From positions 3,410,001 to 3,474,000 of the forward strand of contig NZ_CP030053.1 in NCBI RefSeq assembly GCF_004114955.1: a stretch of 64,000 nucleotides of DNA. Reading direction: 5' to 3'. The translations under genes and the position numbers were made by a program. Below the pieces are notes generated by a model. The model was not told the DNA's origin. It worked only from the letters and a program-made list of their open reading frames with translations, and made no database searches. The stretch comes from Bradyrhizobium guangzhouense. Lineage in GTDB: Bacteria; Pseudomonadota; Alphaproteobacteria; Rhizobiales; Xanthobacteraceae. This document shows, piece after piece, positions 46-54,634 of this stretch. Numbering within the stretch: position 1 is the stretch's first letter; every line of letters begins with the position of its first letter.

Positions 46-1326
46 ATGGATGAAACCATGACCGAAACCGTCCAAACTGCGCCGTTCGCACCCTTCGAGT
101 GGATGCTGTCGGCCCGCTATCTGCGGGCGCGGCGCAAGGAGGGATTCATCTCGGTCATTGCCGGGTTCTCCTTCCTCGGCATCATGCTGGGCGTCGCCAC
201 GCTGATCATCGTGATGGCGGTGATGAACGGTTTCCGGAAGGAACTGCTCGACAAGATCCTCGGGCTGAACGGCCACATTCTGGTCCAGCCGCTGGAATCG
301 CCGCTGACCGACTGGAAGGACGTCGCCGAGCGCATCAGCCAGGTCCAGGGCATCCGGCTAGCTGCCCCCGTGGTCGACGGCCAGGCGCTGGCGTCCTCGC
401 CCTGGAACGCCTCGGGCGTGCTGGTGCGCGGCATCCGCTCCGACGACCTCAACAACCTCACCTCGATCGCCAAGAACATCAAGCAGGGCTCGCTCGAGGG
501 CTTTGACGACGGGCAGGGCGTCGCGATCGGCCGCCGGCTCGCCGACCAGCTGTCGCTGCATGCCGGCGACAGCGTGACGCTGGTGGCGCCGAAAGGCGCG
601 GTGACGCCGATGGGCACGACGCCGCGCATCAAGCCTTACAAGATCGTCGCCGTGTTCGAGATCGGCATGTCCGAATACGACCTCGGGTTCGTCTTCATGC
701 CGCTCGCCGAGGCGCAGGCCTATTTCAACCGCAGCAACGACGTCACCTCGATCGAGGTTTTCACCAACAACCCCGACAAGATCGACGCCTTCCGCAAATC
801 GGTGACGGAGGCCGCGGGACGGCCGGTGTTCCTGGTCGACTGGCGGCAGCGCAACTCGACCTTCTTCAACGCGCTCCAGGTCGAGCGCAACGTGATGTTC
901 CTGATCCTGACCATGATCGTGCTGGTCGCCGCGCTCAACATCGTCTCCGGCCTGATCATGCTGGTGAAGGACAAGGGCAGCGACATCGCGATCCTGAGAA
1001 CGATGGGGGCCTCGCAAGGTTCGATCATGCGGATCTTCCTGATCACGGGCGCCTCGATCGGCGTGGTCGGCACGCTGGTCGGCTTCCTGGTTGGCCTCGT
1101 GATCTGCCTCAACATCGAATCCATCAGGCAATTCCTGTCCTGGCTGACCAGTACCGAGCTGTTCTCGCCGGAGCTCTACTTCCTGTCGAAACTGCCCGCC
1201 GAGATCGACGTCGGCGAGACCACGGCCGTCGTCATCATGGCGCTGACGCTGTCGTTCCTGGCGACGCTGTACCCGTCGTGGCGCGCCGCGCGCCTCGATC
1301 CGGTCGAAGCGCTGCGCTACGAGTGA
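46..1326 (+). CDS. lolC: LolC/LolE-family lipoprotein-releasing ABC permease
   Basis: Inner-membrane permease of the LolCDE complex, which uses ATP from LolD to extract outer-membrane-destined lipoproteins from the inner membrane and pass them to LolA. The 426-residue protein has the family layout: a first membrane span around residues 25-50 ([20 protein letters not shown]), a large periplasmic MacB-like domain, and three C-terminal spans of the FtsX type ending in the typical [15 protein letters not shown] tail. Length matches the family. The start could be the ATG at 46 or the in-frame ATG at 58. Its stop lies 7 bases before lolD, so the two are one operon. Alphaproteobacteria usually carry one LolC/E hybrid gene, so C versus E is not resolvable. 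Confidence 0.93.
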
Positions 1327-1333
1327 GGGGCTG

Positions 1334-2038
1334 ATGGAGCAGCAGCAGGGGGCTGAGGATGTACCGGTCATTTATCTCCACGAGATAAGGCGGCAGTACC
1401 TCCAGGGTGAAGCGGCGCTGACGATCCTCGACAACGCCAAGCTGGCGCTGTGGGCGGGGCAGTCGGTCGCGCTGGTCGCGCCATCAGGGTCGGGCAAGTC
1501 GACGCTGCTGCACATTGCGGGGCTGCTCGAGGCGCCCGATTCCGGCGAGGTCTATGTCAACGGCGCGCCGACCTCGCAGCTGCCCGACATCGAGCGCACC
1601 CAGCTCCGCCGCAGCGACATCGGCTTCGTCTACCAGTCGCACCGGCTGCTGCCGGAATTCTCGGCGCTGGAGAACGTCATGCTGCCGCAGATGATCCGCG
1701 GCCTGAAGAAGTCCGAGAGCGTCAAGCGCGCCAAGGAGATCCTCGGCTATCTCGGCCTCGGCGACCGCATCACGCATCGCCCGGCGGAGCTGTCGGGCGG
1801 CGAGCAGCAGCGCGTCGCGATCGCGCGCGCGGTCGCCAATGCGCCGCGCGTGCTGCTGGCGGACGAGCCGACCGGCAATCTCGATCCGCACACCGCCGAC
1901 CACGTGTTCCAGGCGCTGATGCAGCTGGTCAAGGCGACCAAGGTCTCGATGCTGATCGCGACCCACAACATGGAGCTCGCCGGCCGCATGGACCGGCGCG
2001 TGTCGCTGGCGAACGGCCAGGTCATCGAGCTCGAATAA
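1334..2038 (+). CDS. lolD: Lipoprotein-releasing ABC transporter ATP-binding protein LolD
   Basis: ATPase subunit that powers lipoprotein release by the LolCDE complex on the cytoplasmic face of the inner membrane. The 234-residue protein shows Walker A ([11 protein letters not shown]), Q-loop ([14 protein letters not shown]), ABC signature ([14 protein letters not shown]), Walker B with the following glutamate ([12 protein letters not shown]) and the switch histidine (IATHN). The VYQ..RLLPEF.ALENV pattern is that of the MacB/LolD/FtsE subfamily. It follows the permease by 7 bases and shares its promoter. A frame shadow in +1 is open but has no domain logic. Confidence 0.95.
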
Positions 2039-14306: not shown

Positions 14307-15032
14307 ATGAACAAGAATTTGTTGCTCGCTGCTGTGAGCCTCGTCGCGATCAGCGCGACTGCGCCGGCGCTGGCTGCTGACCTCGCTGCGCGTCCTTACA
14401 CCAAGGCGCCGGCGATGATCGCCACGGTCTATGACTGGAGCGGCTTCTACATCGGCATCAACGGCGGCGGCGCTTCCGCTCATTCGAGCTGGGATCAGAC
14501 CGCTCCGCTGGTTGGCGGCGAAGGTTCCCACAACGCCACGGGCGGCACCGTCGGTGGTCAGGTCGGCTATCGCGTGCAGTCCGGCCAGTGGGTGTTCGGC
14601 CTCGAAGGTCAGGGCAACTGGGCCGACTTCACCGGCGACAACACCAGCGCTCTGCTCGCTCAGCGCAACCGCACCAAGATCGACTCGTTCGGTCTGATCA
14701 CCGGTCAGGTCGGTTACGCCTGGAACAACGTTCTCGTTTACGCCAAGGGCGGTGCGGCCGTCGTCGGCGTCAAGAACGAAGTGTTCAGCACCGCGACCGG
14801 AGCTTCGCTCGGTTCGAACAGCGACACCCGCTGGGGCGGCACGGTTGGCGCCGGCCTCGAATTCGGCTTCGCTCCGAACTGGTCGGTTGGCGTCGAGTAC
14901 AACCACATCTTCCTGTCGGACAAGGACGTCACCTTCGCCGGCCTGAAGACCGATCGCATCCGTCAGGACGTCGACATGGGCCTCGTCCGCCTGAACTACA
15001 AGTTCGGCGGCCCTGTGATCGCCAAGTACTGA
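14307..15032 (+). CDS. Omp25/RopB-like outer-membrane beta-barrel protein
   Basis: 241-residue outer-membrane protein with a cleavable signal (MNKNLLLAAVSLVAISATAP, cleavage after ALAA) and an eight-strand barrel. The barrel starts with YDWSGFYIGINGGGASAHSS and ends with the aromatic-rich MGLVRLNYKFGGPVIAKY. This is the porin-like family abundant in Bradyrhizobium and Brucella (Omp25/Omp31). Internal segments VGGQVGYRVQSGQWVFGLEG, TGQVGYAWNNVLVYAKGG and VGAGLEFGFAPNWSVGVEY are alternating-residue strands. Codon use is strongly biased to the favoured set (aacaac, cgc, gtc), suggesting high expression. It is followed by a strong terminator and is monocistronic. Confidence 0.9.
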   Translation: MNKNLLLAAVSLVAISATAPALAADLAARPYTKAPAMIATVYDWSGFYIGINGGGASAHSSWDQTAPLVGGEGSHNATGGTVGGQVGYRVQSGQWVFGLEGQGNWADFTGDNTSALLAQRNRTKIDSFGLITGQVGYAWNNVLVYAKGGAAVVGVKNEVFSTATGASLGSNSDTRWGGTVGAGLEFGFAPNWSVGVEYNHIFLSDKDVTFAGLKTDRIRQDVDMGLVRLNYKFGGPVIAKY

Positions 15033-15076
15033 GCAAGGTACCGAGAAGAGTCGCTTCGGGAAGAGCGACTGACGAG

Positions 15077-15103
15077 AGCCCCGGCCTTGCGCCGGGGCTT
15101 TTT
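15077..15103 (+). terminator. Rho-independent terminator of the porin gene
   Basis: An 8-bp perfect stem (AGCCCCGG and CCGGGGCT) with a 7-base loop is followed by five T residues. It ends 71 bases after the porin stop codon. Confidence 0.92.
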
Positions 15104-15122
15104 GTTGCGCGAATTCAGCGAG

Positions 15123-15130
15123 TTAACCAT
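15123..15130 (+). promoter_or_regulatory. CtrA-like 8-mer TTAACCAT
   Basis: TTAACCAT matches a CtrA recognition sequence described in Caulobacter. It lies 26 bases upstream of the -35 hexamer of the SOS-type promoter at 15156. An 8-mer occurs by chance reasonably often, so this is weak evidence. Confidence 0.3.
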
Positions 15131-15155
15131 TTCATTTTGAAGCGGCCGAGTTTGC

Positions 15156-15184
15156 TTGACTCCCGAGAACGAAATGAGAACAAT
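15156..15184 (+). promoter_or_regulatory. Promoter of the SOS-type microprotein / dnaE region
   Basis: -35 TTGACT (15156-15161), 17-base spacer and -10 AACAAT (15179-15184). The first LexA-type box covers the spacer and enters the -10, and the second lies just downstream, as expected for a repressible promoter. Confidence 0.6.
15167..15181 (+). promoter_or_regulatory. LexA (SOS) box 1, GAAC-N7-GAAC
   Basis: Perfect direct repeat GAAC-N7-GAAC, the reverse complement of the alphaproteobacterial SOS box GTTC-N7-GTTC, overlapping the spacer and -10 of the promoter. The same motif occurs in front of lexA in this window. Confidence 0.75.
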
Positions 15185-15199
15185 GTTCCTCATACGTTC
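15185..15199 (+). promoter_or_regulatory. LexA (SOS) box 2, GTTC-N7-GTTC
   Basis: Perfect GTTC-N7-GTTC, three bases after box 1 and immediately downstream of the -10, where LexA would block initiation. Having two exact boxes side by side strongly argues against chance. Confidence 0.75.
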
Positions 15200-15216
15200 T
15201 GGTGATGGAGCAAGCC

Positions 15217-15315
15217 ATGTTCAGGATTTTCGTCGAAGAAGCCGCTGCACTGACGTCGATCGCGCTGTTCGTCGGGATGATCGCAATCTGGGCCCAGGTC
15301 ATTCCGCAGCTTTAG
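15217..15315 (+). CDS. 32-residue single-span membrane microprotein, probably SOS-induced
   Basis: A short gene with GGAG at 15207-15210, 6 bases before the ATG. The product starts MFRIFVEEAAA, with charges only at R3, E7 and E8. A hydrophobic stretch (LTSIALFVGMIAIWAQVIP, about residues 12-30) follows, ending in the tail QL. It is therefore a one-pass inner-membrane peptide. It lies directly behind a promoter with two LexA boxes. Size, topology and regulation recall SidA, the 29-residue SOS-induced division inhibitor of Caulobacter that acts on FtsW/FtsN, but I claim no sequence homology. From memory, similar short frames occur before dnaE in Bradyrhizobium; this needs a search. dnaE follows after 180 bases. 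Confidence 0.72.
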   Translation: MFRIFVEEAAALTSIALFVGMIAIWAQVIPQL

Positions 15316-15495
15316 TGCCCACCCCCTTGGGGAAAAGCGGGATGAGGCGGCGGATCGGCCCCTCTGGCGTGGACTCTGGCGCGGCGAGCCCCCACCATTG
15401 CGAGGCGAGTCGGCAAGGGCACTCCAATGGCGATTGGATGATGATCCGACGCCGGCGACCGCCCCAACCCATCTGCAAGAGGCCGTTACGCGACC

Positions 15496-18400
15496 ATGCC
15501 GAGCGCCGGATTTGTCCACCTTCACGTTCACTCGGCCTATTCGCTGCTCAAGGGCTCGATCAAGATCGCCAAGCTCGGCGAGCTCGCGAAGAAAGACCAC
15601 CAGCCTGCGCTGGCGCTGACCGACACCGACAATCTGTTCGGTGCGCTCGAATTCTCCGACAAGATGGCCGGGTACGGCATCCAGCCGATCGTCGGCCTGG
15701 AGCTCGCGGTCGATTTCGGCGACCAGGATCCCAACGCGCGCAACGCGCTGCCGCCTTCGCGCGTGGTGCTGCTGGCAGCCCAGGAGCGCGGCTATCGCAG
15801 CCTGATGCGGCTGAACTCGCGCGCGTTCCTCGAGTCGCCCGATAGCCACGCGCCGTTCATCAAGTTCGACTGGTTCGACGGCGAGACCGAAGGCCTGATC
15901 GCGCTGACCGGCGGCCCTGACGGACCGATCTCGCTCGCGCTGGCCGCGGGGCAGGCCGAGGTCGCAGCCGCGCGCTGCGAGCGTCTCGCCGGCCTGTTCG
16001 GCGATCGCCTCTATGTCGAGATGCAGCGCCACAACATCGACAAGGAACGGCGGATCGAGAGCGGGCTGATCGACATCGCCTATGCCAAAGGCCTGCCGCT
16101 GGTCGCGACCAACGAGCCGTATTTCGCCTCGAACGACGATTACGAGGCGCATGATGCGCTGCTGTGCATCGCCGGCGGCCGGCTGATCGCCGAGACCGAG
16201 CGCGAGCAGTTGACGCCCGATCACCGCTTCAAGACACGCGCCGAGATGGCGGTGCTGTTCGCCGACATTCCGGAGGCGCTGGCCTCGACGGTGGAGATTG
16301 CCGAGCGCTGCTCTTTCCGCCCGATGACGCGCAAGCCGATTCTGCCGTTCTTCACCGTCGGTGCCGCGGCAAGCACGGATGCGGCCGCGGTCGAGGCGGC
16401 CGAACTGAAGCGGCAGGCGGAGGAGGGGCTCGCCAACCGCCTGCGCGTGCACGGCCTGTCGCAGGGCACCACCGAAGAAGATTACGACAAGCGCCTGGCG
16501 TTCGAGCTCGACGTCATCATGCGCATGAAGTACGCGGGCTACTTCCTGATCGTGTCCGACTTCATCAAATGGGCGAAGAGCCAGGGCATCCCGGTCGGGC
16601 CGGGCCGCGGCTCCGGCGCCGGCTCGCTGGTCGCGTGGGCGCTGACCATCACCGACCTCGATCCGATCAAGTTCGGCCTGCTGTTCGAGCGCTTCCTCAA
16701 TCCCGAGCGCGTCTCGATGCCGGACTTCGACATCGACTTCTGCCAGGATCGCCGCGGCGAGGTGATCAGATACGTGCAGGACCGCTACGGCCGCGACCAG
16801 GTCGCGCAGATCATCACCTTCGGTACGCTGCAGGCGCGCGGCGTGCTGCGCGACGTCGGCCGCGTGCTGCAGATGCCCTACGGTCAGGTCGACAAGCTCA
16901 CCAAGCTGGTGCCGCAGAATCCGGCCGCGCCGGTGACGCTGGCGGCCGCGATCGAGAGCGAGCCGAAGCTCCAGGCCTTCCGCGATGAAGATCCGATCGT
17001 GGCGCGCGCCTTCGACATCGCCCAGCGCCTCGAAGGTTTGACCCGGCACGCCTCGACCCACGCGGCCGGCATCGTGATCGGCGATCGTCCCTTGAGCGAA
17101 CTCGTGCCGCTCTACCGCGATCCCAAATCCGACATGCCGGTGACCCAGTTCAACATGAAATGGGTCGAGCCGGCGGGCCTCGTGAAGTTCGACTTCCTCG
17201 GCCTCAAGACGCTGACCGTGCTCGACGTCGCCTGCAAGCTGCTCAAGCCGCGCGACATCCATGTCGATCTCGCCACGCTGCCGATCGACGATACCGAGAG
17301 CTACCAGATGCTGGCGCGCGGCGAGGTGGTCGGCGTGTTCCAGGTTGAAAGCCAGGGCATGCGGCGCGCGCTGGTCGACATGCGGCCGGACCGTTTCGAG
17401 GACATCATCGCGCTGGTCGCGCTGTATCGTCCGGGTCCGATGGCGAACATCCCGACCTATTGCGCGCGCAAGCACGGCGACGAGGAGCCGGAATATCTGC
17501 ACCCCGTGCTCGAGCCGATCCTGAAGGAGACTTTCGGGGTCATCATCTATCAGGAACAGGTGATGCAGATCGCGCAGGTGATGTCGGGCTATTCGCTCGG
17601 CGATGCCGACCTTCTGCGCCGCGCCATGGGCAAGAAGATCCGCGCCGAGATGGACAAGCAGCGCGACATCTTCGTCGCGGGCGCGGTGAAGAACGGCGTG
17701 CCGAAGGGGCAGGCCGAGACCATCTTCGAATTGCTCGCCAAGTTCGCCGACTACGGCTTCAACAAGAGCCACGCGGCGGCTTACGCCCTGGTGTCCTATC
17801 ACACCGCCTATATGAAGGCGCATTATCCGGTGGAGTTCATCGCAGCGTCGATGACGCTCGATCTCAACAATACCGACAAGCTGTCGGAATTCCGCTCCGA
17901 GGCGCAGCGCCTCGGCATCAAGGTCGAGCCGCCGAACATCAACCGCTCCGGCGCGACCTTCGAGGTCGGCGACAAGGTCATCTATTACGCGCTCGCCGCG
18001 CTCAAGGGCGTCGGCATCCAGGCGATCGAGCAGATCATCGAGGAGCGGACCAAGCGGGGCCTCTTCACCTCGCTCGCCGACTTTGCCGCGCGCGTCAATC
18101 CGCGCGCGATCAACAAGCGCATCATCGAGAGTCTGGCCGCGGCCGGCGCCTTCGACACGCTGGAGCCGAACCGCGCTCGCGTCTTTGCCGGTGCGGATTC
18201 GATCCTGGCCGCTTGCCAGCGCGCGCATCAGGCCGAGACCATCGGCCAGAACGACATGTTCGGCATGTCCGCGGACGCGCCGACCATCATGCTGCCGCAG
18301 ATCGAGCCGTGGCTGCCGGCCGAAAAACTCCGCCGCGAATACGACGCCGTCGGCTTCTTCCTGTCGGGCCATCCGCTCGACGATTACGCCACCGTCTTGA

Positions 18401-18999
18401 AGCGGCTGCGGGTGCAGAGCTGGGCGGAATTCTCGCGCGCCGTGAAAACCGGCGCCACCGCCGGCAAGGTCGCGGCGACAGTGGTGTCGCGCATGGAGCG
18501 GCGCACCAAGACCGGCAACAAGATGGGCATCATGGGGCTGTCCGACCCCACGGGTCATTTCGAGGCGGTGCTGTTCTCCGAAGGCCTTGCGCAATATCGC
18601 GACGTGCTGGAGCCGGGCGCGGCCGTGCTGCTCCAGCTCGGTGCCGAATTGCAGGGCGAGGACGTCCGCGCCCGCGTACTGCATGCCGAGCCGCTCGACG
18701 ACGCCGCCGCCAAGACACAGAAGGGCCTGCGCATCTTCGTGCGCGACACCAAGCCGCTCGACTCCATCGCCAAGCGTCTGGCCGGCCCCGAGGCCGCGGC
18801 TGCGAATGGCGCCGCACCGAAGATCGGCAGCCCCGGCATCGCGCCGCGCTCCAATGGCGACGGCGAGGTCTCGCTGGTGATGATGCTCGACCTCGAGACC
18901 GAGGTGGAGATGAAGCTGCCCGGCCGCTTCAAGGTCTCGCCGCAGATCGCCGGCGCGATCAAGGCGGTGGCCGGCGTGGTGGACGTGCAGCAGATCTAG
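15496..18999 (+). CDS. dnaE: DNA polymerase III subunit alpha
   Basis: Replicative polymerase alpha subunit, 1167 residues, the normal size for DnaE1. The N-terminal PHP domain is present (FVHLHVHSAYSLLKGS). The polymerase catalytic aspartates are in MPDFDIDFCQDRRGEV (D410, D412), preceded by the glycine-rich GPGRGSGAGSLVAWAL. The FNKSHAAAYALVSYHTAYMK segment and a C-terminal OB fold (TKTGNKMGIMGLSDPTGHFE) are clear. It is much longer than a DnaE2 assignment would need to exclude, and the context (single gene, no imuA/imuB) favours DnaE1. It starts 180 bases after the SOS-type microprotein, so readthrough from that promoter is possible. A minus-strand open frame covering the whole gene is a codon-bias shadow. 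Confidence 0.97.
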   Translation: MPSAGFVHLHVHSAYSLLKGSIKIAKLGELAKKDHQPALALTDTDNLFGALEFSDKMAGYGIQPIVGLELAVDFGDQDPNARNALPPSRVVLLAAQERGYRSLMRLNSRAFLESPDSHAPFIKFDWFDGETEGLIALTGGPDGPISLALAAGQAEVAAARCERLAGLFGDRLYVEMQRHNIDKERRIESGLIDIAYAKGLPLVATNEPYFASNDDYEAHDALLCIAGGRLIAETEREQLTPDHRFKTRAEMAVLFADIPEALASTVEIAERCSFRPMTRKPILPFFTVGAAASTDAAAVEAAELKRQAEEGLANRLRVHGLSQGTTEEDYDKRLAFELDVIMRMKYAGYFLIVSDFIKWAKSQGIPVGPGRGSGAGSLVAWALTITDLDPIKFGLLFERFLNPERVSMPDFDIDFCQDRRGEVIRYVQDRYGRDQVAQIITFGTLQARGVLRDVGRVLQMPYGQVDKLTKLVPQNPAAPVTLAAAIESEPKLQAFRDEDPIVARAFDIAQRLEGLTRHASTHAAGIVIGDRPLSELVPLYRDPKSDMPVTQFNMKWVEPAGLVKFDFLGLKTLTVLDVACKLLKPRDIHVDLATLPIDDTESYQMLARGEVVGVFQVESQGMRRALVDMRPDRFEDIIALVALYRPGPMANIPTYCARKHGDEEPEYLHPVLEPILKETFGVIIYQEQVMQIAQVMSGYSLGDADLLRRAMGKKIRAEMDKQRDIFVAGAVKNGVPKGQAETIFELLAKFADYGFNKSHAAAYALVSYHTAYMKAHYPVEFIAASMTLDLNNTDKLSEFRSEAQRLGIKVEPPNINRSGATFEVGDKVIYYALAALKGVGIQAIEQIIEERTKRGLFTSLADFAARVNPRAINKRIIESLAAAGAFDTLEPNRARVFAGADSILAACQRAHQAETIGQNDMFGMSADAPTIMLPQIEPWLPAEKLRREYDAVGFFLSGHPLDDYATVLKRLRVQSWAEFSRAVKTGATAGKVAATVVSRMERRTKTGNKMGIMGLSDPTGHFEAVLFSEGLAQYRDVLEPGAAVLLQLGAELQGEDVRARVLHAEPLDDAAAKTQKGLRIFVRDTKPLDSIAKRLAGPEAAAANGAAPKIGSPGIAPRSNGDGEVSLVMMLDLETEVEMKLPGRFKVSPQIAGAIKAVAGVVDVQQI

Positions 19000-20504: not shown

Positions 20505-20657
20505 GGCTGAGGCAAAGGCGGAAGCTTACGCTCAGCTGACGCGATCTGTTGAGATCGGCTGGTGCCATGCCGCTGCCTCAATCCGAGCCTTTCGTTCAAG
20601 TGCCGTTCAGCCGGCCGCGCGTCTCATGCGTGGTGGACACTCAACAACAATACAATA

Positions 20658-30978: not shown

Positions 30979-33519
30979 ATGAAGTTTGGACTGCGACTCC
31001 GGGGGGGCTTGCTCGCAACCCTGATCATGTTCGGCGCGCCGGTGGTTGCCCCGGTTGGGGCTGTTTTGGTGTCTTCGTCTGCGCTCGCCCAGACCGTGCA
31101 GTCGATTTCCGTCGAAGGAAATCGCCGCGTCGAGGTGGAGACGATCCGCTCCTATTTCAAGCCTGGCCCCGGTGGGCACCTGGATCAGGGTGCCATCGAT
31201 GATGGCCTCAAGGCGTTGATCGAGACCGGCCTGTTCCAGGACGTGAAGATCAACCGCGGCGCCGGTGGCCAGCTGGTCGTCTCCGTTGTGGAAAACCCGG
31301 TGATCGGGCGCATCGCGTTCGAGGGCAACAAGAAGATCAAGGACGAGCAGCTCACTGCCGAAGTGCAGTCCAAGGCCCGCGGCACCTTCTCCCGTGCCAT
31401 GGTGCAGTCGGACACGCTGCGAATCGCCGAGATCTACCGCCGCTCCGGCCGCTATGACGTGAGCGTCGTCCCTGAAATCATCGAGCAGCCGAACAACCGC
31501 GTCGATCTCGTCTTCACGATCAACGAAGGCGCCAAGACCGGCGTCAAGTCGATCGAATTCGTCGGCAACAATGCGTTCTCGTCCTACCGCCTGCGCGACG
31601 TCATCAAGACGCGCGAAACCAATCTGCTGAGCTTCCTCGGTAGCGGCGACGTCTACGACCCCGATCGCGTCGAGGCCGACCGCGACCTGATTCGCCGCTT
31701 CTACCTGAAGAACGGCTTCGCCGACGTTCAGGTCGTCGCCGCGCTCACCGAATACGATCCGCAGAAGAAGGGCTTCAACGTCACCTTCAAGATCGAGGAA
31801 GGCCAGCAGTACCGCGTCGGCACCGTCGATTTCCGCACCAGCATTCCGAATTTCGACCCCAGCACGTTGCGCTCCTTTTCGCGCGTCAATGTCGGTTCGC
31901 TCTACAATGTCGAAGCGGTCGAGAAGTCGGTCGAGGAGATGCAGATCGAGGCCTCGCGCCGCGGCTATGCCTTCGCGGTGGTGCGTCCGGGCGGCGACCG
32001 CAATTTCGATGCGCACACCGTCGCCGTCGTGTTCAACATCGACGAAGGTCCGCGCACCTATATCGAGCGCATCAACATCCGCGGCAACACCCGTACCCGT
32101 GACTACGTGATCCGCCGCGAGTTCGATATCTCGGAGGGCGACGCCTACAACCGTGCGCTGGTCGACCGCGCCGAGCGCCGCCTGAAGAACCTCGACTACT
32201 TCAAGAGCGTGAAGATCACGACAGAGCCGGGCTCGTCCAGCGACCGCGTGGTCCTGGTCGTCGATCTCGAAGAGAAGTCGACCGGCGACTTCTCGGTCTC
32301 GGGCGGTTACTCCACGACCGACGGTGCGCTGGCCGAAGTCTCGGTCTCGGAGCGCAACCTGCTCGGCCGCGGCCTGTTCGCCAAGGCCTCGGTCACCTAC
32401 GGCCAGTATGCGCGCGGCTATTCGCTGTCGTTCGTCGAACCGTATTTGCTCGACTATCGCGTCGCGCTGGGCCTCGACCTGTATCAGCGCCAGCAGCTGT
32501 CCAACAGCTTCATCTCCTACGGCACCAAGACGCTCGGCTTCTCGCCGCGTCTCGGCTTCGCCTTGCGTGAAGATCTGTCGCTGCAGCTGCGCTACTCGAT
32601 CTATCAGCAGGAAATCACGCTGCCGTCCTATCTGTCGAACTGTAACAACATCATCGGTTCGTCGGCATTCAATCCAAGCCCGGCTTTTGCCGCGACGCAG
32701 ACGCCTCCGATCGACCTGACCTCGACAGGCGGCCTCGGCTGCTACAGCGACGGCGAAGCCTCTCTGCCTGTCCGCAAGGAGCTTGCGAACGGCAAGACGC
32801 TGACCTCGGCGCTCGGCTACACGCTGACCTACAACACGCTCGACAACAACAAGAACCCCAATGACGGTCTGCTCATCGACTTCAAGCAGGACTTTGCCGG
32901 CGTCGGCGGCGACGTCTCCTACCTGAAGACCGCAGCGGACGCGAAGTACTACCAGTCGCTGATCTCGGACATTGTAGGCCTCGTCCATCTCCAGGGCGGT
33001 ATCCTGAACAAGATCGGCAGCAAGGATCTGCGCATGCTGGATCACTTCCAGATGGGTCCGAACCTCGTCCGCGGTTTCGCGCCGAACGGCATCGGTCCGC
33101 GCGACATCAACCCGTACGACACGCAGGACGCGCTCGGTGGCACCAAATATTGGGGTGCTTCGCTCGAATTGCAGATGCCGTTCTGGTTCCTGCCGAAGGA
33201 AGTCGGTCTGAAGGGCGCGGTCTATGCCGACGCCGGTGGTCTCTACGACTATCAGGGTCCGACGACCTGGTCGCTGACGGGCGAAACCACGACGACCAAG
33301 AACTCGAACTGTATCGGGTCGACCATCAATCCGAACAGCACCGGAACCTGTACTGGCCTCGTCTACGACGACAGCAGGGTGATCCGGTCGTCGGTCGGTG
33401 TCGGCTTGATCTGGGCCTCGCCGTTCGGTCCGCTGCGCTTCGACTACGCAGTGCCGCTCACCAAGGGCAAGTATGACCGTACACAGGAATTCCGGTTCGG
33501 CGGCGGCACCTCGTTCTAA
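30979..33519 (+). CDS. bamA: Outer membrane protein assembly factor BamA
   Basis: Core subunit of the BAM complex that folds beta-barrel proteins into the outer membrane. 846 residues: signal peptide (to about residue 35, SSALAQ), five POTRA domains (IRSYFKPGPGGHLDQGAIDD; GVKSIEFVGNNAFSSYRLRD; YIERINIRGNTRTRDYVIRR), then a 16-strand barrel ending in the aromatic tail FRFGGGTSF. ATG 30979 is used; a TTG two codons earlier is possible. A 174-base gap after rseP may hold its own promoter. Confidence 0.96.
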   Translation: MKFGLRLRGGLLATLIMFGAPVVAPVGAVLVSSSALAQTVQSISVEGNRRVEVETIRSYFKPGPGGHLDQGAIDDGLKALIETGLFQDVKINRGAGGQLVVSVVENPVIGRIAFEGNKKIKDEQLTAEVQSKARGTFSRAMVQSDTLRIAEIYRRSGRYDVSVVPEIIEQPNNRVDLVFTINEGAKTGVKSIEFVGNNAFSSYRLRDVIKTRETNLLSFLGSGDVYDPDRVEADRDLIRRFYLKNGFADVQVVAALTEYDPQKKGFNVTFKIEEGQQYRVGTVDFRTSIPNFDPSTLRSFSRVNVGSLYNVEAVEKSVEEMQIEASRRGYAFAVVRPGGDRNFDAHTVAVVFNIDEGPRTYIERINIRGNTRTRDYVIRREFDISEGDAYNRALVDRAERRLKNLDYFKSVKITTEPGSSSDRVVLVVDLEEKSTGDFSVSGGYSTTDGALAEVSVSERNLLGRGLFAKASVTYGQYARGYSLSFVEPYLLDYRVALGLDLYQRQQLSNSFISYGTKTLGFSPRLGFALREDLSLQLRYSIYQQEITLPSYLSNCNNIIGSSAFNPSPAFAATQTPPIDLTSTGGLGCYSDGEASLPVRKELANGKTLTSALGYTLTYNTLDNNKNPNDGLLIDFKQDFAGVGGDVSYLKTAADAKYYQSLISDIVGLVHLQGGILNKIGSKDLRMLDHFQMGPNLVRGFAPNGIGPRDINPYDTQDALGGTKYWGASLELQMPFWFLPKEVGLKGAVYADAGGLYDYQGPTTWSLTGETTTTKNSNCIGSTINPNSTGTCTGLVYDDSRVIRSSVGVGLIWASPFGPLRFDYAVPLTKGKYDRTQEFRFGGGTSF

Positions 33520-47924: not shown

Positions 47925-49601
<1,677 letters not shown>

Positions 49602-53812: not shown

Positions 53813-54523
53813 TCAGTATTTCCGGTACAGCCCGATCAGCTTGCCCTGGATCTTGACCCGGTTGGGCGGCAGGATCCGGACCTCGTAGGCGGCGTTTGCC
53901 GGCTCGAGCGCAATCGAGGCGCCACGGCGGCGGAAGCGTTTGAGCGTTGCTTCCTCGTCGTCGATCAACGCCACCACGATATCGCCGGTGTCGCAGCTCT
54001 CGTTGCGCTGGATCAGCGCCATGTCGCCGTCGAGAATCCCGGCATCGACCATGGAATCGCCGCGCACTTCGAGCGCGTAGTGCTCGCCCGCGCCGAGCAT
54101 GTCGGGCGGGACGCTGATGGTGTGGCTGCGGGTCTGCAAGGCCTCGATCGGCGTACCGGCCGCGATCCGGCCCATCACGGGAACCGCGACGGGGCGCTCG
54201 CCTTCGTCAGCGGGCGGGCTCGACGTCGTCCGCACCTTGCCGAGATTGCCCTCGATGACGCTCGGCGTGAAGCCGCGGCGGCTGCCGGCAGCCGCCTGGA
54301 GTTCGGGCAGCTTGATCACTTCGATGGCGCGGGCGCGGTTGGGCAGGCGGCGGATGAAGCCACGTTCCTCGAGCGCGGTGATCAGGCGATGGATGCCCGA
54401 CTTGGAGCGCAGGTCGAGCGCGTCCTTCATCTCGTCGAAGGAGGGCGGCACGCCGCTTTCCTTCAATCGCTCGCTGATGAACCGCAGGAGCTCGTATTGT
54501 TTGCGCGTTAACATCTCGACCAA
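53813..54523 (-). CDS. lexA: SOS repressor LexA
   Basis: Repressor of the SOS regulon, cleaved with the help of RecA filaments. 236 residues: winged HTH ([40 protein letters not shown]), Ala-Gly cleavage site in [12 protein letters not shown], catalytic Ser in [14 protein letters not shown] and Lys in [14 protein letters not shown]. The protein is longer than E. coli LexA by a linker typical of alphaproteobacteria. A perfect operator lies at 54615-54629 between the promoter elements, so it is autoregulated. Confidence 0.97.
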
Positions 54524-54607: not shown

Positions 54608-54634
54608 ACTATATGTTCGATACATGTTCCGCAA
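54608..54634 (-). promoter_or_regulatory. lexA promoter
   Basis: On the minus strand a TATAGT -10 (54608-54613) and TTGCGG -35 (54629-54634) are separated by 15 bases, a short spacer; the SOS box lies between them. Confidence 0.5.
54615..54629. promoter_or_regulatory. LexA (SOS) box of lexA, GTTC-N7-GTTC
   Basis: Perfect alphaproteobacterial SOS box, 91 bases upstream of the lexA start. It gives an internal reference for the two boxes at 15167-15199. Confidence 0.9.

Follow-up and report, generated by a model that had tools for sequence, protein, structure and literature searches.

The window analysed here, i.e., the whole stretch of 64,000 nucleotides from Bradyrhizobium guangzhouense, carries a small open reading frame of 32 codons upstream of dnaE and on the same strand. 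The encoded peptide comprises 32 residues, MFRIFVEEAAALTSIALFVGMIAIWAQVIPQL. Coordinates of all features are given in the table. The promoter described in an earlier note on this DNA is present, and so are the two further elements named there, a GAAC-N7-GAAC motif over the promoter followed by GTTC-N7-GTTC, and a GGAG sequence in front of the ATG of a single-span peptide. The promoter is the sole promoter-like match between positions 15000 and 15600, where 50 shuffled sequences yielded 0.1 matches on average. Box 2 is inverted with respect to box 1, and their starts are 18 nt apart. With box 1 on the -10 element and box 2 on the expected transcription start, this is, as far as can be judged from the sequence, a layout expected to repress. 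No terminator-like site was detected in the gap between the microprotein ORF and dnaE. In the region 14900-15700 no small RNA or antisense family exceeds its gathering score, and all four Rfam matches therein stay below theirs.

Table. Features of the window around the microprotein gene, lolD and lexA.
Feature	Position	Strand	Remarks
lolC/lolE-like gene	46..1326	+	named by eye from translation
lolD-like gene	1334..2038	+	close to peptide and dnaE in many relatives; approximately 13 kb upstream here
outer-membrane-protein-like gene	14307..15032		named by eye
terminator-like stem-loop with T tail	15083..15099	+	3' of the outer-membrane-protein-like gene; divides it from the microprotein-dnaE unit
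sigma-70-like promoter	15156..15184	+	-35 TTGACT 15156-15161, 17-nt spacer, -10 AACAAT 15179-15184
LexA-type box 1, GAACGAAATGAGAAC (GAAC-N7-GAAC)	15167..15181	+	within the spacer, overlaps the -10
LexA-type box 2, GTTCCTCATACGTTC (GTTC-N7-GTTC)	15185..15199	+	directly 3' of the -10, over the expected transcription start
ribosome-binding site GGAG	15207..15210	+	6 nt 5' of the ATG
SidA-like microprotein gene	15217..15315	+	ATG 15217, 32 codons and TAG 15313-15315
dnaE (DNA polymerase III alpha)	15496..18999	+	same strand, 180 nt downstream of the microprotein ORF
lexA	53813..54523	-	named by eye from translation
LexA-type box upstream of lexA	54615..54629	-	perfect motif match

AlphaFold2 predicts a single helix spanning residues 2-31 of the peptide (mean pLDDT 96.2), and the hydropathy reaches a maximum of 2.13 over 17 residues. 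One predicted helix is as expected for so hydrophobic a peptide. Its conservation among relatives supports, at the level of sequence, the classification as a membrane microprotein that the earlier note had proposed. Pfam holds no family for the peptide at E-values up to 1. The sole match in NCBIfam is the Rv2732c membrane protein with 14 bits against a cut-off of 60, and the SidA equivalog model NF033228 (cut-off 35 bits) did not match even at E-values up to 10. Sequence evidence for a hydrophobic peptide of 32 residues is inherently thin, and the argument below is one of several signals in agreement.

Whole-genome searches (E <= 0.01) matched the peptide in 231 of 296 genomes drawn from its GTDB family. 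We read 70 of these loci, namely the best 30 listed and 40 of the remaining listed ones, picked for spread over genera. Both boxes are present in 66 loci, one box in three, and none in one. The start-to-start spacing in the 66 two-box loci is 18 nt in 64 cases and 16 nt in two. TTGAC occurs at a nearly identical position in most of 40 aligned relatives. In 68 of the 70 loci dnaE lies downstream of the peptide, with a gap of 110-892 nt (median 196). It is absent from the approximately 1 kb read in L031, where lolD (named by eye from translation) is found upstream of the peptide, and likewise in L065. The peptide copy of L065 adjoins an rlmE-like gene, again named by eye, instead of dnaE.

Substitutions in these 70 loci show a bias in frame. 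Summed over all pairs, raw pN/pS is 0.242 in the proposed frame versus 1.09 and 3.15 in the two alternative ones, and if the 18 closest loci are taken by themselves, it drops to 0.109. The three codon positions vary by 0.154, 0.052, and 0.333, respectively; both statistics are uncorrected for relatedness among loci. Judged by this pattern, the ORF encodes a conserved protein. The earlier note had named a conserved frame with synonymous-biased substitutions and conserved boxes as a check of its claim, and this is what the relatives display. From the 65 family genomes that lack a peptide match, 20 were taken up, and the place in front of dnaE was obtained in 17. One of the 17 carries a boxed membrane ORF there, which is no more than in a far-upstream control (1 out of 16), and thus some genera have lost the gene or carry a form diverged past recognition.

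The box motif itself requires caution. Counting both strands, GAACN7GAAC occurs six times in the window against 1.67 expected, and one out of 100 shuffles gets to six. Over the whole genome, there is no enrichment of the motif as such, with 163 copies versus 214 for the pattern read backwards. A single box therefore proves nothing, and the motif alone was rejected as a marker of SOS genes. Evidence for an operator comes from the paired arrangement and its conservation. The conserved pair over the promoter thus supports LexA-type control at sequence level, and the same operator type also precedes lexA in the window, both as the earlier note had it. Further perfect copies at 20594-20608, 33333-33347, and 48345-48359 are probably due to chance, given the genome-wide count.

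Passages of PMC4211646 describe SidA as a 29-aa inner-membrane division inhibitor that interacts with FtsW. The family of the Caulobacteraceae was located with a CtrA sequence, which led to genome G347, the best match among 64 genomes at 88% identity. In this family, dnaE was found in 58 out of 60 genomes, and 47 out of 50 upstream regions contain a peptide of 27-31 residues of the type MARIARETLALASVVGFVWMMCSVAYLAA before dnaE, the exceptions being L172, L174, and L188. The 47 peptides were chosen with a motif pattern, so that the internal similarity of this set is partly selected; independent of this selection is the NCBIfam match of one example member, which scores 59.7 bits with NF033228, "cell division inhibitor SidA", against the cut-off of 35. 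We also used a motif-free definition of a boxed membrane ORF: a perfect box at most 600 nt from dnaE, followed within 120 nt by an ORF of 24-45 codons that starts with ATG and exceeds a 17-residue hydropathy of 1.6. Such ORFs are found in 23 of the 50 Caulobacteraceae regions, and in 41 if up to one box mismatch is allowed; as controls for the latter count, the reverse strand gave two and shuffles no more than one. The same type of peptide precedes dnaE in Caulobacter sp. (L214, L216), Phenylobacterium deserti (L215), and Brevundimonas diminuta (L217), which identifies the family of G347 as Caulobacteraceae. NF033228 is a narrow model, as two dnaE-linked forms of the Caulobacteraceae type, L190 and L211, reach 20.5 and 26.5 bits, below its cut-off. 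The Roseibium peptide scores 16.5 bits with it, and in a mixed alignment of 33 peptides it matches seven.

The position of sidA in C. crescentus can be deduced from locus tags in the literature. Passages of PMC1839093 give dnaE as CC1926, lexA as CC1902, and recN as CC1983. In the newer numbering, lexA is CCNA_01979 (passages of PMC11535069), recN is CCNA_02062 (passages of PMC12700426), sidA is CCNA_02004 (passages of PMC10769358), and CCNA_02005 is an inosine-uridine nucleoside hydrolase (passages of PMC3667746). From the offsets between these tags, dnaE would be CCNA_02003 and thus adjoin sidA. In one genus, 59 of 61 genomes match the Caulobacteraceae-type peptide, and 16 of 30 genus loci were readable for upstream genes. 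In five of these 16 (L307, L311, L314, L315, L317), the peptide is preceded by a nucleoside hydrolase in divergent orientation, and one of these hydrolases was confirmed as PF01156. The arrangement of nucleoside hydrolase, peptide, and dnaE in the genus loci is the same neighbourhood as that of C. crescentus sidA.

Beyond these two families, a profile built from the window's family only (A1, 25 variants) matched its own and one same-genus genome among 387 genomes of the class. Elsewhere in the 387 it yielded no comparable match but weak fragments in 19 genomes, with E-values of 0.0027-0.1. This null result reflects in part a lack of sensitivity, since the profile also missed a peptide of genome G660 that was found by a query of 28 residues. 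Because the profile fails to reach other families, the search for relatives turned to the region in front of dnaE. With the motif-free definition, a boxed membrane ORF is present in 14 out of 70 class representatives, the own locus counted; these are the best 30 and 40 others of 139 genomes with dnaE, some families being represented twice. In a named panel it is present in 22 of 79 records, the panel of 80 being used without L282, in which the dnaE start is missing. Controls with a perfect box gave 0 and 0 on the opposite strand, 0/30 and 0/74 further upstream, and a maximum of 0 in 20 dinucleotide shuffles. When one box mismatch is allowed, the counts become 14 class representatives and 25 named records; the reverse strand then gives 0 and 2, and the shuffles reach 1 at most. 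Named records with such an ORF include Rhizobium tropici, Aureimonas, Ahrensia, Devosia, Ancylobacter, Roseibium, and Bauldia, as well as Maricaulis, Hellea, Aquisalinus, Phenylobacterium, Tardiphaga, and Pseudorhodoplanes. Records without one include those of Rhodobacter, Ruegeria, Roseovarius, and Sulfitobacter, besides three of Mesorhizobium, one of Bartonella, and another of Devosia. A block of mostly Rhodobacterales-type records (L230-L238, L244, L246-L250) shows no boxed membrane ORF before dnaE; the peptide gene may have been lost there or moved elsewhere.

Versions of 26-43 aa precede dnaE in the Rhizobiaceae and other groups. We took the family of G660 as Rhizobiaceae from 84% identity to the N-terminus of R. 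tropici DnaE. A single query of 28 residues matches 73 out of 198 genomes of this family. Of the 30 loci with the best matches, 27 contain a box, and in all 30 dnaE follows at a distance of 118-565 nt. Eight of the 30 (L344, L350, L352, L353, L355, L356, L362, L370) carry two overlapping boxes, GAACN7GAACN7GAAC, whose starts are 11 nt apart and which have one half-site in common, a design unlike the facing boxes of the window's family. The Rhizobiaceae-like loci resemble a situation in S. meliloti, where sORF25 in the 5'-UTR of dnaE1 was seen to be translated by Ribo-seq and considered a possible uORF by the authors (passages of PMC10117765). Both are small ORFs in front of dnaE or dnaE1, the one translated and the other a boxed 28-aa membrane ORF, and sORF25 may be the same gene as the window family. 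The main text of PMC10117765 mentions neither SidA nor LexA.

Homology between the window peptide and SidA was addressed by profile comparison with hhalign, using 200 controls made by permuting the columns that follow the conserved acidic residue. The window family was represented by 58 distinct peptides and SidA by 42, and each was run against the Rhizobiaceae set and against 27 other alphaproteobacterial peptides, the latter set without those of L093 and L104. The window family scores 28.4 with the Rhizobiaceae (largest of 200 controls 17.2) and 29.8 with the 27 other peptides (largest control 21.0). For SidA, the corresponding scores are 25.2 (largest control 18.7) and 32.4 (largest control 24.4). 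The direct comparison of the window family with SidA is weaker, with a score of 22.6 that is reached by one out of 200 controls; in another direct comparison under two schemes, the real score was reached by 1/200 and 0/200 controls. A smaller set of 22 peptides, including the one of Ancylobacter, pointed in the same direction. The recurrent pattern is Asp or Glu, often after Arg, Lys, or Glu, then x-x-A-[LF]-x-S-hydrophobic-x-x-F-[VIL], with exceptions. Homology of the window peptide to SidA is thus supported by sequence comparison via the Rhizobiaceae and the other alphaproteobacterial peptides.

Likeness to SidA of C. crescentus (CCNA_02004, NF033228) extends to length (29 versus 32 aa), to the one hydrophobic helix, to LexA-type boxes, and to a gene immediately 5' of dnaE on the same strand. 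The pattern E-x-x-A-L-x-S-x-x-x-F-V-x-M is common to both. Differences exist as well. The window peptide is 28% and 34% identical to two forms from the genus Caulobacter, and the curated NF033228 model leaves it unmatched, which places it as a homologue outside that equivalog. Operators are a facing pair in the window's family, whereas Caulobacteraceae boxes are mostly of the GAAC type with a single orientation, and many deviate by one letter. Since position, operator, size, and pattern agree, we consider the window peptide to be homologous to SidA in both position and sequence. The earlier note had claimed a functional analogy only; position, regulation, and profile similarity carry its idea further, to homology.

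The neighbourhood may have a longer history. A lolD match is present in the fetched stretch of 29/70 window-family loci, 44/70 class representatives, 15/50 Caulobacteraceae loci, and 42/80 named records, counts that denote presence in stretches of unequal length and not order. Possibly, lolD, microprotein, and dnaE represent an old gene order that was interrupted by an insertion in Bradyrhizobium.

To our knowledge, no named SOS division inhibitor is known from rhizobia, Bradyrhizobium, and relatives. Likewise, the portions of the open-access literature covered by our search contained no such inhibitor, and no earlier report of SidA outside Caulobacter. The main texts of two B. japonicum papers, one on small ORFs and one on start sites, do not mention dnaE, LexA, or SOS. 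YneA, ChiZ, and SosA of Gram-positive bacteria are also small SOS-induced single-span membrane inhibitors of division; they belong to other lineages, some have extra domains, and they are likened here by description and not by sequence. AlphaFold 3 models, according to passages of PMC13396833, place ChiZ, SosA, and SidA on TM7 of FtsW, SidA on the opposite side and without high confidence.

Three other readings of the locus were weighed. A chance ORF within a dnaE promoter or leader RNA that is itself conserved and LexA-controlled would fit the box motif being common and unenriched in the genome, yet the frame-specific synonymous bias over 70 loci, with variation of 0.333 at third versus 0.052 at second codon positions, and the similar peptides that other families have in this position make it hardly credible; pN/pS already contradicts it. 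A leader uORF, whose translation tunes the downstream dnaE and whose peptide has no target, has more in its favour: dnaE follows on the same strand in 68/70 loci and in 30/30 Rhizobiaceae-like loci, the gap contains no detected terminator-like site, and passages of PMC10117765 count sORF25 among the ORFs that could act in this way. We nevertheless consider it unlikely, as the amino-acid sequence is kept along the whole length with a synonymous bias and as the gap of 110-892 nt is unlike translational coupling or attenuation. Moreover, SidA at the equivalent place in Caulobacter is a functional protein (passages of PMC4211646).

The peptide could also act like E. coli TisB or DinQ, i.e., be induced in the SOS response and reduce membrane potential or slow growth from within the membrane without acting on the divisome. 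TisB has the same combination of small size, hydrophobicity, LexA-type box, and single helix that is seen here. Such features are common to these peptides, DinQ among them (PMC3567139). Homology and position link the window peptide to SidA, however, and no sRNA or antisense family around the gene (14900-15700) exceeds its gathering score, which makes a role of the TisB or DinQ kind improbable.

We therefore favour the SidA reading and think it likely that the gene is the Bradyrhizobium member of a dnaE-linked, LexA-repressed family of single-helix peptides that includes SidA and delays division, most likely via FtsW. This draws on promoter and operator layout, conservation as a protein, linkage to dnaE, and homology to SidA, all of them read from sequence. 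In such a scheme, LexA bound to the two facing operators would block the promoter. Upon DNA damage, RecA-stimulated cleavage of LexA would free it, and the 32-residue peptide would be made. It would enter the inner membrane as one helix and delay constriction until repair is complete, most likely by binding a transmembrane face of FtsW or its partners. By homology, the action on FtsW after LexA cleavage should be the same as that of SidA, which would amount to a role as a division checkpoint. dnaE may be co-induced with the microprotein, in analogy to S. meliloti, where sORF25 resides on the dnaE1 transcript, and in view of the long-conserved adjacency and a gap in which no terminator-like site was detected. 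A wider idea, which we put forward tentatively and which could well turn out to be wrong, is that SidA is no speciality of Caulobacter but an ancestral alphaproteobacterial gene, long kept first in a LexA-controlled sidA-dnaE unit, such that one damage-induced transcript would both hold division and supply the polymerase.

If the SidA reading is true, a checkpoint studied in a single genus would become a testable module of much of the class, and natural sequence variation could be used to map the contact between SidA and FtsW. The unexplained translated ORF before dnaE1 in S. meliloti may gain a function. Since the linkage to dnaE is conserved, one may ask whether the replicative polymerase itself belongs to the SOS response; if the sidA-dnaE unit holds true, this polymerase would be supplied for repair and restart.
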